Positions 31,401 through 37,997 of a stretch of DNA of 64,000 nt are shown one piece after another. Source of the stretch: Gemmatimonadota bacterium (GTDB lineage Bacteria > Gemmatimonadota > Gemmatimonadetes > Gemmatimonadales > GWC2-71-9); assembly GCA_003169895.1 (NCBI GenBank), contig PNAE01000007.1, positions 1,524,296 to 1,588,295 on the forward strand, in the 5' to 3' direction. Under the pieces are notes generated by a model, which had not been told where the DNA came from, ran no database searches, and saw only the letters and a list, made by a program, of their open reading frames with translations. Position numbers and translations under genes: made by a program. Position 1 is the stretch's first letter, and each line of letters starts with the position of its first letter.

Positions 31401-33980
31401 ATGCCTGACCCCGCCGGTCCCGGCGGCGAACGTCCGCTCAGCGAGGCGATGCGCCACCGGCAGCAGTACGCCGGATTGATTGGTGTCGCGTCCAAGATGC
31501 GCATCACCGATGCCAGCGTGCTCAGCACGATCTACACGCCCGGTGTCGCCCAGCCGTGTCTCGACATCCAGAAATCCCCGGTGGAGTCATTCGCGCAGAC
31601 GATGCGCGGCAACACCGTCGCGATCGTCTCCGACGGCTCCGCCGCCTTCGGACTCGGCATGGTCGGCCCGGAGGCGATTCTTCCCGTCATGGAAGGGAAG
31701 AGCGTCGTGTTCAAGACCTTCGCCGGAGTCGACGCCCTTCCGATCTGCCTCAGCACGCATGACATCAGCGAAATCGTCGAGACCGTGATCGGCCTCGCCC
31801 CGACGTTCGGCGGCATCTGCCTGGAGGACATCGTCGCGCCGGCGTGCCTTACGATCGGCGAGGAATTGCAGCGCGCGATGAACATTCCGGTGATCAACAA
31901 TCACCGGGAAGCGGTGGCCGTCGGCGTACTCGCCGGCGTGCTCAACGCGCTCAAGATCGTGGACAAGAAGGCGGAGGCGGTCAAGGTCGTCATCAACGGC
32001 AGCGGTGCCGCCGGGATCGGGACCGCCGAGATGCTGCTCAGGATCGGGGTCCGCAACATCATCGTCTGCGACCGCCATGGCGCGCTGTCGCCATATCGAC
32101 CGCAGACGATGCACTGGGCCAAGTGGGAACTCGCCAAGAAGACCAATCCCGACCGGATGCGTGGCGATCTCGCGACCGTCATCACGGGCGCGGATCTGTT
32201 CATCGGGTTTTCCGTCGGTGACGTCGTCACGCCGGAGATGATCCGCAGTATGGCGATCCGGCCGATCGTCTTCGCGTTCGCGGGACCGGTGCCCGAAATC
32301 GAGCCGGCCGCGGCCTACGCCGCCGGTGCAGCGGTCGTGGCCACTGCGCAGTCGCAGTACGCCAACCAGATGGACATCGCGTCGGTGTTCCCGGGCCTCT
32401 TCCGCGGTTTGCTCGATGTTCGCGCCCGTCGGGTGAACGACCAGATGCTCCTCGCCGCCGCCGAGGCCTTGGCAGCCCTTGTGTCCGAAGATGAACTCTC
32501 CCACAACTATATCGTGCCCAAGGTGCTCGACTTCCGGGCGGCGCCGGCGATCGCGCAGGCCGTCGCCGCGGCGGCCATCGGCACGGGCGTCGCCAAGGTC
32601 GCGACGGATCCCGAATGGATCGCGGAACGCACCCGCCATTTCATTCGCGAGGGCCGCTTCCCGGTTCCGGAGCCGTCGGTTGACGACACCGCCTCCTACG
32701 CCGAGCAATCGGTGGACCTGCACCGGCGATACCAGGGCGTGCTCGAGATCAAGAGCAAGGTGCCGATCACCGACGACCACATCCTGAGCCTGTTCTACCT
32801 GCCGCCGGGCGCAGTTGAGCCGGCGGAGCGAATCGCGCAACACCCTGACTGGGTGTACGACTACACGATCAAGCGCAATCTCGTCGCCATTGTCTCGGAC
32901 GGCTCCGCGGTACTGGGCCTCGGCAACATCGGTGCCCGCGCCGCGATGCCGGTCATGGAAGGCAAGTCGGTCCTGTTCCATACCTTTGCCGGTGTCGAGG
33001 CATTCCCGATCTGCATCGCGACGCAGGATCCGGATGAAATTGTCGCGATCGTCAAGCGCCTGGAACCGACGTTCGGCGGCGTGAATCTGGAGGACATTTC
33101 CGCGCCGCGGTGTTTCCATATCGAGGAGCGCCTGAAGCGGGAGACGAGCATCCCGATCTTCCACGACGACCAGCATGGTACTGCGGTGGTGGTACTCGCC
33201 GGCGTGATGAACGCGTGCCGGGTCACTGGTCGGGCGTTGCGCGATCTCGCCATCGTGGTCAACGGCGCGGGCGCCAGCGCCATCGCGGTGAGCAAGTTGT
33301 TGATCAGCGTCGGCGTCGGCGACGTGGTTCTTTGCGACACCACGGGCACGATCTACCGGGGCCGCGCCAAGGGAATGAACCCGATCAAGGAAGAGATGGC
33401 GGCGATCACCAACCGGGGCGACGTGCGCGGCACGCTGGCCGACGCCATGCGCGGGCGCGACCTGTTCATCGGCCTGTCGGCGGCGGGTGCCGCCACGGCG
33501 GACATGGTGCGGAACATGAACCCGCACCCGATGGTGTTCGCGCTGGCCAATCCGACGCCGGAGATCTTTCCCGACGAGGCCAAGGGCGCCGGTGCTGCCA
33601 TCTGTGCCACAGGGCGCAGCGACCTGCCCAATCAGGTCAACAACTCGCTCGCATTTCCGGGCATCTTCCGGGGCGCGCTCGACACGCGTGCCCGGCAAAT
33701 CACCGATCCGATGAAGATCGCCGCGGCGCACGCGATCGCGGCGAGTGTCACCGAGGCCCAGCTGGGCCCGGATTTCATCATTCCCGGGGCGATGGATTTT
33801 TCGGTCGCACCACGCGTGGCGATGGCCGTCGCGCGCGTGGCAATGGAGAGCGGGGAGGCGCGGCAGACGGTGGAGCTCGCGGTCGTCGCGGCGCGCTGCC
33901 ACGGCTTTGCATACGAGGGCGGACGCCGGGCAGCCGAAGGCGGCGACACGCCCGACGCGCCCGGACCGGGGGTGCGCTAA
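31401..33980 (+). CDS. Tandem (two-module) malic enzyme; first module active-site degenerate, second canonical
   Basis: Module 1 ~31401-32690: YTPGVAQPCL...PVMEGKSVVFKTFAGVDALP...CLEDIVAP...IPVINNHREAVAVGVLAGVLNA...INGSGAAGIGTAEMLL. Module 2 ~32691-33980: PVMEGKSVLFHTFAGVEAFP...NLEDISAP...IPIFHDDQHGTAVVVLAGVMNA...NGAGASAIAVSKLL. Confidence 0.92.
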   Translation: MPDPAGPGGERPLSEAMRHRQQYAGLIGVASKMRITDASVLSTIYTPGVAQPCLDIQKSPVESFAQTMRGNTVAIVSDGSAAFGLGMVGPEAILPVMEGKSVVFKTFAGVDALPICLSTHDISEIVETVIGLAPTFGGICLEDIVAPACLTIGEELQRAMNIPVINNHREAVAVGVLAGVLNALKIVDKKAEAVKVVINGSGAAGIGTAEMLLRIGVRNIIVCDRHGALSPYRPQTMHWAKWELAKKTNPDRMRGDLATVITGADLFIGFSVGDVVTPEMIRSMAIRPIVFAFAGPVPEIEPAAAYAAGAAVVATAQSQYANQMDIASVFPGLFRGLLDVRARRVNDQMLLAAAEALAALVSEDELSHNYIVPKVLDFRAAPAIAQAVAAAAIGTGVAKVATDPEWIAERTRHFIREGRFPVPEPSVDDTASYAEQSVDLHRRYQGVLEIKSKVPITDDHILSLFYLPPGAVEPAERIAQHPDWVYDYTIKRNLVAIVSDGSAVLGLGNIGARAAMPVMEGKSVLFHTFAGVEAFPICIATQDPDEIVAIVKRLEPTFGGVNLEDISAPRCFHIEERLKRETSIPIFHDDQHGTAVVVLAGVMNACRVTGRALRDLAIVVNGAGASAIAVSKLLISVGVGDVVLCDTTGTIYRGRAKGMNPIKEEMAAITNRGDVRGTLADAMRGRDLFIGLSAAGAATADMVRNMNPHPMVFALANPTPEIFPDEAKGAGAAICATGRSDLPNQVNNSLAFPGIFRGALDTRARQITDPMKIAAAHAIAASVTEAQLGPDFIIPGAMDFSVAPRVAMAVARVAMESGEARQTVELAVVAARCHGFAYEGGRRAAEGGDTPDAPGPGVR

Positions 33981-33982
33981 CC
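33975..33982 (+). repeat. 8-bp target site duplication, left copy (CGCTAACC)
   Basis: Identical to 37990-37997; contains the malic enzyme TAA stop. Confidence 0.9.
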
Positions 33983-34010
33983 GGTGGTGGGTCACTTTGA
34001 GCCGTGACAA
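33983..34010 (+). repeat. Left terminal inverted repeat, 28 bp
   Basis: GGTGGTGGGTCACTTTGAGCCGTGACAA. Confidence 0.95.
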
Positions 34011-34147
34011 AGGGGGGCGTGGCGCGGTCCGTGAGACTGGGCTTCGGCGCGACGATATGCGCGTTCGGGGTCCTTTGATGGTCATTAATGGGAGGTACCG
34101 CCCTTGACGGGGAGCGCCTCTTGGTCGAAGCTACTGGTGTGGATAGA

Positions 34148-34165
34148 TTGTGAAAACGTTCACAA
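34148..34165. promoter_or_regulatory. Palindromic operator-like site upstream of passenger operon
   Basis: TTGTGAA-AACG-TTCACAA, immediately 5' of the RBS/GTG start at 34177. Confidence 0.5.
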
Positions 34166-34176
34166 AGGGAACACCA

Positions 34177-34458
34177 GTGGCTGATTCAGACGTACCCGAA
34201 CTTTACTGCGATGGTGCGCAGGTCGGGCTCACCCCTTTTACCGCCATACTCTCGCTGACGATGCAACCTTCGGGTCAGACGGGGCAGATGCCACCGACCA
34301 GGGTGGCGAATATCCGCATGAGCTTGGAGCACGCGAAGGTGATGGCAATCGTGCTTAAGAAGCAGATCAAGGCTTACGAAGCGCAAACTGGCGTCGATAT
34401 CCAGCTTCCCGCGCAGTTGTATCAGCAGCTCGGAATCAGCAAACAGGAGGACTGGTAA
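34177..34458 (+). CDS. DUF3467-like small protein
   Basis: MADSDVPELYCDGAQ...PPTRVANIRMSLEHAKVMAIVLKKQIKAYEAQTG resembles the MSPEHAKxLxxxLxxNIxxYE pattern of DUF3467. Confidence 0.6.
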   Translation: MADSDVPELYCDGAQVGLTPFTAILSLTMQPSGQTGQMPPTRVANIRMSLEHAKVMAIVLKKQIKAYEAQTGVDIQLPAQLYQQLGISKQEDW

Positions 34459-34459
34459 A

Positions 34460-34669
34460 ATGACACAGCTACAGAAAAACATTGAGGCGCCGGTGGAGTG
34501 GTCTCAGCCGCTCACGAATATGCCGTCGCGACACGCCAACCTAACAGAAACACTCGATGCTGTGATGCATGGGATCGCTCAGGCAGCGAGAGGCGAAGGT
34601 ACGCACATCGATCCTGATACGCTGCCGACCGATGACGACCGGAGGAATACTGACCGTCGCCGCAGCTAG
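34460..34669 (+). CDS. Small hypothetical protein, possible antitoxin position
   Basis: 69 aa ORF 1 nt after the previous stop; overlaps the next gene's GTG by one base. Confidence 0.55.
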   Translation: MTQLQKNIEAPVEWSQPLTNMPSRHANLTETLDAVMHGIAQAARGEGTHIDPDTLPTDDDRRNTDRRRS

Positions 34670-34983
34670 TGCCCGTCCCCGGCGCTCCGTTTCGCCTAAA
34701 GCTGACCCCTGACGCCGAGACGAGTTGGAATGCGTTGGCAACGAGCGATCAGGGAAAGTGGAAAAAGGTCAATAAGGCTCTAAAATACCTCAAGAACGAT
34801 CCAGGTCATCGGAGCCTAGCCGCACATAAATGGGATACACTTCGAGGCCGCGCACCGGATGGCGGAGATATTTGGACCGCCTACGCCGAAAACAATACAC
34901 CATCGGCGTGGCGCATCTTCTTCTTCTACGACAGCCGTGACCCCGGACTCATCTATGTCACCACGATAGAGCCGCATAGTTAG
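34669..34983 (+). CDS. RelE/ParE-superfamily-like protein (putative toxin)
   Basis: FRLKLTPDAETSWNALATSDQGKWKKVNKALKYLKNDPGHRSLAAHKW...IWTAYAENNTPSAWRIFFFYDSRDPGLIYVTTIEPH. Confidence 0.6.
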   Translation: MPVPGAPFRLKLTPDAETSWNALATSDQGKWKKVNKALKYLKNDPGHRSLAAHKWDTLRGRAPDGGDIWTAYAENNTPSAWRIFFFYDSRDPGLIYVTTIEPHS

Positions 34984-35840
34984 TTACCCACCAACACGCT
35001 CCCATCCATCATCGCAATCAGATCATCCGCCGTCCACAACCGATCCGCCAACTTTGACGCCATCGCTGGCGACGTGTGGACGCCGTTCGCGGCCTTGGTC
35101 AATGTCCGCTGCACCTTGCAGTAATTGTATGAGAAGAACGTCAATGCCAGCGCCGCCGCGTGGTTCTCGTGCTTACGGCTGAATCCATTGGACAGCCGGG
35201 TCATGCGACGGCAATTCATCCGGGTATTGAGGTTCACCCGCTCAACGAAGCTGGTGCTGACCTTCGCCATGTTCGGGCGGCCGATCATGCGGACCTTCTT
35301 GGCCCCGGTGCAAATCGGCGGGGAGTAGCGCCGTGACGTGACGTTCTCCTGTGCCTGGCCGTAGCTCTCTTGCAGGACCGCGAAGTCACACTTCGCAAAC
35401 GCGAAGGCCGCACGCACGGCGTGAGGATATGGCTGCCATCCATCGCTCGTGAGCTGGACGCGAGTCGAGACGCGCTCGGCAATGTCCTTGACGAAAGCAA
35501 AGGTGTTCTCAGGCGTCCGTGCACCGACGAGCCAGCTAAAGAGCAGCTTGGTCTCGGCGTCGATTCCCGCGAACACCCAAACGTCCCCTTGTCCCGGCAG
35601 CTTCGCGTTGCGCTGCTTGCTGCCGATGTAGCCCCACTGCTCATCGACCTGCGCCTCTTTCACCGGCAGGTTCCGAAACCGATAGTCCGAGAACACTTCG
35701 CAGAACGTCCCAGCCTCAACTAGCAGGTTCAGGACGGTGCGCTTGGCCGCGCCCGTGACGCGGCAGGTGGCCCGGACGCCCATGCCATCCATCAGGCACC
35801 GGACGATCATGGAGCGGGTGGTAGCGGGTAGCTTGTTCAT
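34980..35840 (-). CDS. IS1-like DDE transposase
   Basis: MNKLPATTRSMIVRCLMDGMGVRATCRVTGAAKRTVLNLL; QVDEQWGYI; FAGIDAETKLLFSWLVGART; LTSDGWQPY; SFVERVNLNTRMNCRRMTRLSNGFSRKHENHAAALALTFFSYNYC. Confidence 0.85.
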   Translation of the reverse strand: MNKLPATTRSMIVRCLMDGMGVRATCRVTGAAKRTVLNLLVEAGTFCEVFSDYRFRNLPVKEAQVDEQWGYIGSKQRNAKLPGQGDVWVFAGIDAETKLLFSWLVGARTPENTFAFVKDIAERVSTRVQLTSDGWQPYPHAVRAAFAFAKCDFAVLQESYGQAQENVTSRRYSPPICTGAKKVRMIGRPNMAKVSTSFVERVNLNTRMNCRRMTRLSNGFSRKHENHAAALALTFFSYNYCKVQRTLTKAANGVHTSPAMASKLADRLWTADDLIAMMDGSVLVGN

Positions 35841-35851
35841 GGAATAAATAT

Positions 35852-35922
35852 ACCTACCCCCTAGGCATATTGTCAATACCTACCCCATAGGTATTGACAG
35901 CGAAGTGCCTACCCCCTAAGTT
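35852..35922. promoter_or_regulatory. Divergent promoter pair with central 29-bp palindrome and three CCTACCCCnTA operator-like copies
   Basis: Palindrome TGTCAATACCTA-CCCCA-TAGGTATTGACA (35871-35899); leftward TTGACA-18-TATATT; rightward TTGACA-17-TAAGTT; extra copies at 35851-35867 and 35908-35922. Confidence 0.75.
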
Positions 35923-35947
35923 CTGGCATCACCCAAGCGGAGGGCTC

Positions 35948-37033
35948 ATGGCGAAAGACAAGTCCAGCGGAGAATACGGGGCGGAGGGGGGACGCAAGCG
36001 GGCCGAGCGGCTCTCCAAAGATCAGCTCACGGAAATTGGCCGGAAGGGGGCACTCGCCCGTTGGGCCAAGGAGGGCAAGGAGGTAAATGAGCCAATCCCG
36101 GCCGTCTACGGATCTCCGGATAGCCCGTTGCGGCTGAACGGAGTGGAAATCCCCTGCTACGTGTTGGCTGACGGGCGCAGAGTGATCACACAGCGCGGGT
36201 TGCAGCAGGCTTTGGGGCTGTCCACTGGCGGCGGAAGTCGCGGCGCGCGGCGGATACCGGCTCTAATCGCCAACTTGCGGCGCAAAGGATTAGATGTCAA
36301 AGACTTAGCCGCGCGCAGCGACAACGACATTCGATTCTTGCCACCGAAGAAAGGCGGCAATCCGGCGCTTGCCTATGAGGCGGACATCCTCGAAGGACTT
36401 TGCACTGCGCTGATTGATGCGGACAAGGGCGGAAAGCTGGCGTCCAATCAGAAGGGCCTCGGGGAGCGCGCGCGCATCCTTCACCGTGGTTTCGCCAAGG
36501 TCGGCGTCATCGCACTGGTTGATGAGGCTACAGGCTATCAGAAGGATAGACCGAATCACGCGCTGGCTGAGATCCTCGACGCATTCATTGCGAAGGAATT
36601 GCGCCCGTGGGTGCGCCGATTCCCCTTCGAGTTCTATCAGGAAATCTTCCGACTCAAGCAGTGGGATACTTCTGACCTTACACCCAACTCACCCAAGCCT
36701 ATCGAGGTCGGAAAGATCACCGTTGACCTCATCTACAGGCGGCTCGCGCCGGGTGTTCGGAACGGACTTACCAAGCTCACCCCCCGAAGCGAAAAGGGAT
36801 ACCTAACGACAAAGCTTCATCGGTGGCTCTCCTCTGACGTGGGAGACCCGAAGATGGAGGCGCTTATCGGCAAAGTGGTGACTGTGATGAAGCTTTCCGA
36901 CGACTGGCCGGACTTCATGCGGAAGATGGAGAAGGCTGGAATACAGCGGGTCAGCGATAACCTGGAGTTGCAGTTTCCCGAGCCGCGCCGCTTATTCCCC
37001 GGCGCGACTACTGCCGCTGATCTAGCGTCCTAG
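35948..37033 (+). CDS. P63C domain-containing protein
   Basis: MAKDKSSGEYGAEGGRKRAERLSKDQLTEIGRKGALARWAKEG; VGVIALVDEATGYQKDRPNHALAEILDAFIAKELRPWVRRFPFEFYQEIFRLKQW. Confidence 0.85.
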   Translation: MAKDKSSGEYGAEGGRKRAERLSKDQLTEIGRKGALARWAKEGKEVNEPIPAVYGSPDSPLRLNGVEIPCYVLADGRRVITQRGLQQALGLSTGGGSRGARRIPALIANLRRKGLDVKDLAARSDNDIRFLPPKKGGNPALAYEADILEGLCTALIDADKGGKLASNQKGLGERARILHRGFAKVGVIALVDEATGYQKDRPNHALAEILDAFIAKELRPWVRRFPFEFYQEIFRLKQWDTSDLTPNSPKPIEVGKITVDLIYRRLAPGVRNGLTKLTPRSEKGYLTTKLHRWLSSDVGDPKMEALIGKVVTVMKLSDDWPDFMRKMEKAGIQRVSDNLELQFPEPRRLFPGATTAADLAS

Positions 37034-37038
37034 AAACC

Positions 37039-37182
37039 CTAGCGGCGCTTGCTGGCCTTCTTAGCGCCCTTCGGCTTGGCCGGTGGGCGCTTGGGCTTCT
37101 CCCCGGTCAACCGGGCCAGCACGTCATGGGCAGCGAGGTTGGGGTCAGTGTGGCGCTTGGGCTTCGTAGGCTTTTGGGGCAT
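37039..37182 (-). CDS. 47-aa very basic peptide
   Basis: Manual minus-strand translation: MPQKPTKPKRHTDPNLAAHDVLARLTGEKPKRPPAKPKGAKKASKRR*. Confidence 0.55.
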   Translation of the reverse strand: MPQKPTKPKRHTDPNLAAHDVLARLTGEKPKRPPAKPKGAKKASKRR

Positions 37183-37232
37183 CAGCGGAGGGAATCCTTG
37201 TAGGTCTGGATCTGAGTGGCGAGCAACGAGGA

Positions 37233-37871
37233 CTAGGGCTTCTCGTAGAGCATACTGTCGGGAAAGATGGTCGCTAGGAAGAGTCGGAGCGAGGCCAGAT
37301 TCTTGAGGTTGACCTTGCCCTCTTTGTAGCCCCGGCTCCCGTAGAGGCGCCAGACGAGCGAGTCAGCCCTGGCGATCGCAAACATCTGTTGCGGCGTAAC
37401 CGCAAAGAGCGCCGATTCGCTTACGCTGCTATGTCCCGACGCGCTGGCCGTCGCATAGCATCCACTGGCGTCCGTTTGCGGCGGCGCCAGAGGCGAAAAG
37501 GTCGTCGGCTCGCCATTGATCAAGAGGCCGAACGCGTCGCCATCGCGCGGCATGAACATCCAAGCGGTTCCGCAATATTCGAGGTCGAAGGCAAACGTCG
37601 TGTCGCCCTGCCGACTGATGGATCGCCGCCAGGCTAGCGAAATGACGTCGGTGCACACGCCAAGCGCCGCGCCCAATCCGTTGCAATTGATCCGGGCGAG
37701 ATCTCTGGGGTGGGTCACCAGCTTCGCCGTCCCGGTGAATCGGTCGACCTCGCTGACTTCGAAATCCTGCTTGGAGTGGACGTCGAGCGGGGCGAGCCGG
37801 CGTGGGGCAGCCTTTTGCGCCGAAAGCGGAACGCAGGCAAGCGCGAGGAGGATTAGGCTCCATCGCTTCAA
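37233..37871 (-). CDS. Secreted hypothetical protein (transposon passenger)
   Basis: Signal peptide MKRWSLILLALACVPLSAQ; 212 aa. Confidence 0.7.
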   Translation of the reverse strand: MKRWSLILLALACVPLSAQKAAPRRLAPLDVHSKQDFEVSEVDRFTGTAKLVTHPRDLARINCNGLGAALGVCTDVISLAWRRSISRQGDTTFAFDLEYCGTAWMFMPRDGDAFGLLINGEPTTFSPLAPPQTDASGCYATASASGHSSVSESALFAVTPQQMFAIARADSLVWRLYGSRGYKEGKVNLKNLASLRLFLATIFPDSMLYEKP

Positions 37872-37961
37872 TTGATTCTCCGTTGACGGGGTCGCGCGAT
37901 CATGGAATCAGCCGATTGAGCATCCGTCAAAACTAGCGCCCCCATAGCTAGGGGGGGCGGA

Positions 37962-37989
37962 TTGTCACGGCTCAAAGTGACCCACCACC
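37962..37989 (-). repeat. Right terminal inverted repeat, 28 bp
   Basis: TTGTCACGGCTCAAAGTGACCCACCACC, exact reverse complement of 33983-34010. Confidence 0.95.
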
Positions 37990-37997
37990 CGCTAACC
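37990..37997 (+). repeat. 8-bp target site duplication, right copy (CGCTAACC)
   Basis: Identical to 33975-33982. Confidence 0.9.

Follow-up and report, generated by a model that had tools for sequence, protein, structure and literature searches.

A candidate operator-reading domain at the N terminus of the P63C protein of an IS1-like transposon

Comparison of the control region of an IS1-like transposon with those of its relatives points, through the co-variation of protein and operator, to an unannotated DNA-binding domain, termed here ARW, as the likely reader of the operators. In the window (the whole stretch of 64,000 nucleotides that was analysed) this domain is located at the N terminus of the P63C protein, which in our judgement is likely to bind three operators through it and to repress both the transposase gene and its own. 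We strongly infer the recognition of the operators by the ARW domain from the compared sequences, whereas the position of the sites suggests repression.

Promoters and operators between the two divergent genes

The region 35841–35947, situated between the divergent transposase and P63C genes, is best explained as the control region of the IS1-like transposon, with putative operators that overlap or adjoin both divergent promoters. Its elements are as follows.

35847–35852, minus strand: transposase −10 box, TATATT
35850–35868, plus strand: operator 1, ATACCTACCCCCTAGGCAT, in the transposase spacer and −10 box
35871–35876, minus strand: transposase −35 box, TTGACA
35876–35894, plus strand: operator 2, ATACCTACCCCATAGGTAT, between both −35 boxes; a perfect dyad and the core of the 29-bp palindrome
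35894–35899, plus strand: P63C −35 box, TTGACA
35905–35923, plus strand: operator 3, GTGCCTACCCCCTAAGTTC, in the P63C spacer and −10 box; imperfect
35917–35922, plus strand: P63C −10 box, TAAGTT, weak (3/6)

The 29-bp palindrome described in the first-pass annotation, TGTCAATACCTA-CCCCA-TAGGTATTGACA, is present at 35871–35899, between the two genes, and its arms match perfectly (12/12). The leftward promoter is also as described, with TTGACA (35876–35871), an 18-bp spacer and TATATT (35852–35847) giving 11 of 12 consensus matches. The rightward one is in place as well, TTGACA (35894–35899) being followed after 17 bp by TAAGTT (35917–35922), but this −10 box agrees with the consensus in only three of six positions; judged by consensus, the P63C promoter is weak, and it is absent from the list of the promoter scan. 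Of the two motifs assigned to the spacers, CCTACCCCCTAGG is found at 35853–35865, exactly where it had been placed, and CCTACCCCCTAAG is present at 35908–35920, one base to the left of its claimed position.

Repeat analysis identified three 19-bp sites in the same orientation, spaced by 26 and 29 bp, the middle one of which (operator 2) touches both −35 boxes. Three copies of a 19-bp dyad operator describe the region better than one 29-bp palindrome, which reaches that length because the TTGACA boxes, placed back to back, themselves form an inverted repeat. In the window the 19-bp operator pattern occurs three times, compared with none in 100 shuffles. In the 3.42-Mb genome, its sole copies with no mismatch are two of the three sites, the third being a copy with three mismatches; the few other genome matches carry two or three mismatches, and no convincing copy was found elsewhere in the genome. 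The operators are thus private to the element, which makes a host regulon unlikely.

The start codon of the transposase lies only 6 nt beyond its −10 box. The transposase mRNA is probably leaderless, since the −35 box begins 36 nt before the start codon, as in the relatives, where this distance is 35–36 nt in 120 of the 177 that have TTGAC (among the matches listed). A reading of the dyads as RNA hairpins was rejected, as they should fall outside a leaderless transposase transcript, and the single-strand DNA fold is only mildly better than that of shuffles (z −2.2).

The element, its relatives and their control regions

The transposon and its genes are arranged in the window as follows.

33975–33982: target site duplication CGCTAACC, left copy
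33983–37989: IS1-like transposon with passenger genes, 4007 bp, with 28-bp perfect terminal inverted repeats and an 8-bp target duplication
33983–34010, plus strand: left terminal inverted repeat, GGTGGTGGGTCACTTTGAGCCGTGACAA
34177–34983, plus strand: passenger ORFs of 93, 69 and 104 aa; the 93-aa ORF (34177–34458) has a weak DUF3467 match
34980–35840, minus strand: transposase, 286 aa, IS1-family DDE
35948–37033, plus strand: P63C protein, 361 aa; Pfam P63C (PF10546) 1.1e-24, PHROG 2384 2.5e-87
35960–36070, plus strand: ARW domain of P63C, KSSGEYGAEGGRKRAERLSKDQLTEIGRKGALARWAK, matching the C-terminal half of small ARW proteins (model positions 43–80)
36035–36037, plus strand: putative specificity residue I30 of P63C
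37039–37182, minus strand: basic peptide, 47 aa, matching ARW model positions 1–45 (E 2e-6)
37233–37871, minus strand: passenger ORF, 212 aa, with a hydrophobic start and no family match
37962–37989, minus strand: right terminal inverted repeat
37990–37997: target site duplication CGCTAACC, right copy

Judged by its sequence, the transposase is a divergent member of the IS1 family, with a match to Pfam DDE_Tnp_IS1 (1.8e-9, 38.5 bits, cut-off 24.1) and one to NCBIfam transpos_IS1 (3.5e-17, 63 bits) that stays under the cut-off of 100. The ends are those of the family as well, with repeats that start with GG and a target duplication in the range of 8–9 bp. The traits of a classical IS1, a short element without passengers and with an InsA/InsB frameshift, are absent, and on account of its passengers (about six ORFs), its length of 4007 bp and its single-frame transposase the element is called IS1-like rather than a classical IS1. 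Its insertion point coincides exactly with the stop codon of a malic-enzyme-like gene (31401–33980), and the duplication CGCTAACC includes this TAA. The P63C domain scores above its curated cut-off (87.3 versus 26.1 bits), and the searches with the P63C protein returned no recombinase match, only P63C itself, a LEA_5 match under the threshold and two PHROGs to which no function is assigned. No second repressor gene is evident within the element. The tandem ORFs of 69 and 104 aa (34460–34983) resemble a small antitoxin/toxin-type pair, with no family match above threshold.

The relatives compared here come from 395 genomes of the phylum, from GTDB genomes (the matches listed), from viral contigs and from about 1180 genomes of three further phyla. 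IS1-like elements of this family are present in Gemmatimonadota, Acidobacteriota, Proteobacteria, Verrucomicrobia, Planctomycetes and others. Seven of them (L045, L048, L054, L058, L059, L062 and L063) have boundaries of the same kind, with GGT/GGC-type ends and duplications of 8–9 bp, and most relatives with located ends have ends and duplications of the same kind and carry passengers. The divergent pair of transposase and P63C genes recurs in L016/L056, L024/L064, L073, L087, L115, L128, L199, L204 and others.

Across many phyla, the relatives have a dyad at the equivalent place, different in sequence and usually with AAGCAT arms. Conservation of the palindrome in related elements, on which the first-pass annotation had made its reading depend, thus extends to the place of the dyad and not to the sequence found in the window; as the sequences stand, taking a lack of conservation as refutation would have misled, the operator sequence apparently varying from one element to the next as a result of joint change in the protein and its operator. 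A typical transposase promoter of a relative reads TTGACA-ATGCTTGACCGCTCAAG-CATAATggtcagt-ATG. In the 100 bp directly before the transposase genes of the relatives CAAGCAT is enriched about 50-fold, and exact 7-bp inverted repeats are present in 41 of 170 transposase upstream regions, compared with 5.8 in shuffles. Both arms of the dyad vary jointly (ATGCTT/AAGCAT, ATGCGT/ACGCAT, ATGCGC/GCGCAT and ATACCTA/TAGGTAT).

The ARW proteins and their co-variation with the operators

Nearly all elements encode a small basic protein, ARW (DxNxxAxxIVxxATGE...KGGKARAxxLSPExRSEIAxKAAxARW), that ends in the helix LSPExRSEIAxKAAxARW and has no Pfam or NCBIfam family entry. It was found in 178 of 206 elements, and the dyad accompanies it in 175 of 201 elements, compared with 7 of 35 elements that lack ARW (p 3e-15; background rate 10%), both counts being among the matches listed and the latter restricted to elements for which 2.3 kb or more of upstream sequence was available. 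Independent support for an ARW domain in P63C comes from the small ARW proteins, which match the N terminus of PHROG 2384 at 1e-3 to 1e-7. The 47-aa peptide of the window corresponds to the small ARW proteins over their N-terminal half and has no ARW helix, and P63C is the only protein of the element in which this helix was found. The peptide, one of three ligands suggested by the first-pass annotation, is disfavoured, as the half that carries ARW in its homologues is missing. Small proteins cut in a similar manner to the N-terminal half plus a basic tail are encoded by L066, L075, L103, L194 and L217, the transposase promoters of which are without the usual AAGCAT dyad.

AlphaFold gives a plausible helix pair for ARW (pLDDT 83, pTM 0.41) and three helices for the small ARW protein, the last of which contains the putative specificity residue; in the P63C model, the ARW region is of low confidence. 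The ARW and P63C models had no significant structural match in the PDB, and a plasmid search with an ARW protein of L187 found no match. L138 encodes a second ARW protein, with an identical score, just downstream of the transposase, and perhaps consists of two tandem elements.

The co-variation of the helix with the operator arms was first noticed by eye and counted afterwards. With AAGCAT arms, the fourth residue of RSEIA is I, L, V or M in 111 elements and another residue in four, whereas with ACGCAT, ACGTAT or GCGCAT arms it is S or A in 13 and of the I type in three (among the matches listed; Fisher p 4e-12), the ACGCAT class being small (about 16) and the operator classifier crude. The remaining exceptions include L100 and L452; L121 and L199 are classification errors. 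The transposase tree has 13 changes of operator class and 11 of the helix residue, and 13 independent pairs comprise ten that are concordant, none that is discordant and three unchanged (p 0.002); supported branches alone leave six independent pairs, four concordant and none discordant, too few for p<0.05. A further 54 elements were fetched after the rule had been written down, and among these I is found in 20 of the 21 with AAGCAT promoters, while the sole element with a GCGTAT arm (L439) has A.

The first-pass annotation also named the transposase as a possible ligand, and the corresponding alternative is a transposase that occupies the operators and thereby shuts its own promoter, comparable to InsA of IS1, which acts at the terminal repeats. 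The transposase is present in every element and its N-terminal region is helix-turn-helix-like, but the co-variation test went against it: the helix column ranks best among 80 ARW and 231 transposase columns, and no transposase column equals the ARW residue, the best one having an MI of 0.19 versus 0.36 and at most 6 independent pairs versus 10. Elements without ARW retain the transposase and yet mostly lack the dyad, and the operator is unlike the terminal repeats, so that we regard this alternative as improbable. In many relatives (for instance L084 and L182), a sequence resembling the terminal repeats, GGTCAGT, is found at the transposase start codon, sometimes with an inverted upstream copy; there it is possibly a second, transposase-based autoregulation, and this sequence is absent from the transposase start in the window.

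The ARW reading, to return to it, extends to other helix types. In a second switch, TTGACATGCTAAA-type operators pair with a GGxRR[LM]xTM helix. Most P63C genes of IS1-like elements of this kind are preceded by one to five GCAAGCA-type sites and encode a helix with I, and in L056, where P63C is the only ARW protein, the residue is A and two ACGCAT operators are found. The two ARW proteins of L414 differ in helix type, and each fits the operators of its own promoter: the small protein has I, with AAGCAT at the transposase gene, and P63C has S, with CGCACGCAT..ATGCGTGCG at the P63C gene.

The helix of the P63C protein of the window, QLTEIGRKGALARW, is rare. Before the scan described here only L181 also had QLxxIGxxGA, and it likewise has CCT/AGG arms. 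A blind scan of 2.9 million viral contigs for the window type of operator promoter gave 11 matches, of which chance would account for a few. At one of them, L496, a stand-alone ARW protein of 61 aa is encoded next to the site; it has QLREIGLRGAAARW, the same variant as in the window and L181, and a second similar site lies before its gene. CCT/AGG operators thus accompany all three known carriers of QLxxIGxxGA and 6 of 212 other elements (p 5e-5, partly post hoc), the class of the window (CCTA..TAGG with QLxxIGxxGA) comprising three cases, two of which were seen before the motif was defined. Blind scans for CAGGCAT-type operators gave four matches, none near an ARW protein, and those for the ACGCAT type a single match, in an already known contig (the L187 record). 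In the phage contig L496 (9720–9960) the ARW protein lies between two CCT/AGG-type sites, with a separate P63C gene. ARW regulators would accordingly occur outside transposons as well.

Proposed regulation and comparison with known systems

P63C had been one of the three guessed ligands, and the co-variation now names it, through its ARW domain, as the probable regulator. The notion of a symmetric switch would survive in that one element-encoded regulator has matching operators in both promoters, with the palindrome given up as the unit, and P63C would be a regulator rather than cargo if it reads the operators. Beyond recognition, we infer direct binding, repression rather than activation, autoregulation and a leaderless transposase mRNA. 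P63C would bind the three 19-bp operators through a two-helix ARW domain, with the recognition residues in the second helix. Repression is the likely sign because the sites cover the spacer and −10 boxes, where the bound protein would block RNA polymerase at both promoters, and the arrangement of three sites over two divergent promoters makes autoregulation together with control of the transposase likely. Repression by P63C would keep transposition rare, and a burst of transposition would follow entry of the element into a P63C-free cell or the loss or inactivation of P63C.

The sign of P63C action could differ, since the phage Mx8 protein p63, after which the family is named, is annotated as the anti-repressor Ant. 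P63C might accordingly bind the sites and activate, for which the 18-bp spacer of the transposase promoter would leave room, or act as an anti-repressor of another regulator; the coverage of spacers and −10 boxes, a transposase promoter near consensus and the lack of an evident second repressor gene in the element make this improbable. Control of both promoters by a host repressor such as a CsoR/RcnR-type metal sensor is very improbable: the genome has three CsoR-family genes, the operators of such proteins can have C/G-rich centres within A/T-rich dyads and TACC..CCCC..GGTA presumably resembles them superficially, but this candidate was dropped as the operator has no other good copy in the genome, none being shared with host promoters, and the unrelated dyads at the equivalent place in relatives track an element-encoded protein.

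Returning to P63C as the reader and repressor, a broader reading appears somewhat more probable than its opposite, namely that ARW is a very small and hitherto undescribed domain that binds DNA sequence-specifically and serves as the private repressor of a large IS1-like transposon family and of phages, with a readable code and perhaps immunity groups. As part of this reading, I would specify AAGCAT, S or A would specify ACGCAT, GGxRRLxTM CTAAAG-type and QLxxIGxxGA CCTA-type arms. If true, elements may form mutually exclusive immunity groups, as temperate phages do. A likely function would be given to a widespread family that has no Pfam or NCBIfam entry and to the P63C N terminus, and it would be seen how passenger-carrying IS1-like transposons, a broad group, may silence their transposase. 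If confirmed, it would also provide small orthogonal repressors and predict which transposons repress each other. Our literature search found no paper on passenger-carrying IS1 elements with such a repressor, and little on P63C.

In the tnpA/tnpR system of the Tn3 family, transposase and regulator genes are divergent, three binding sites lie between them and the regulator shuts both promoters. The element of the window has the same arrangement, with three putative operators (starting at 35850, 35876 and 35905) between divergent genes. However, TnpR is a serine recombinase whose sites double as a recombination site, whereas P63C has no recombinase match and its sites are 19-bp operators in promoter spacers; judged from these features the switch can work like tnpA/tnpR but is not one. 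InsA of IS1 is element-encoded, represses the transposase promoter, shares the frame of the transposase and binds the terminal repeats. The element of the window shares with IS1 the transposase family and the proposed element-encoded repression of the transposase promoter, but its regulator is a separate gene and its sites are internal and unlike the element ends.

BstA, a prophage protein, has a region that putatively binds DNA and, at the start of its own gene, a short DNA element, aba, as its cognate partner, and its variants have their own partner DNA elements (PMC8585504). BstA–aba is similar to the switch proposed for the window in combining a DNA-binding-type protein with its own cognate site, and differs in that aba is not described as a promoter operator (PMC8585504). 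The start of BstA as read from aba (MVNQIRSISPR) has no ARW motif, and P63C had no match in PADLOC, the presence of a BstA model in that library being unconfirmed.

A further likeness is to phage regulators of the P63C/KilA-N type (Mx8 p63; DC1, Lodos, SEN34, Pkon1), which share the P63C family, the ARW N terminus and ATGCTTGC-type dyads directly upstream. Unlike in the window, the phage P63C genes are not beside a transposase, and most are without functional annotation. The P63C proteins of phages DC1, Lodos, SEN34, Pkon1, Kuwabara and Petra have an ARW N terminus, with AAGCA or AAGTAT sites just upstream of their genes; the helix residue is I in nearly all of them and V in SEN34. In phage Barco, both types of site are present.
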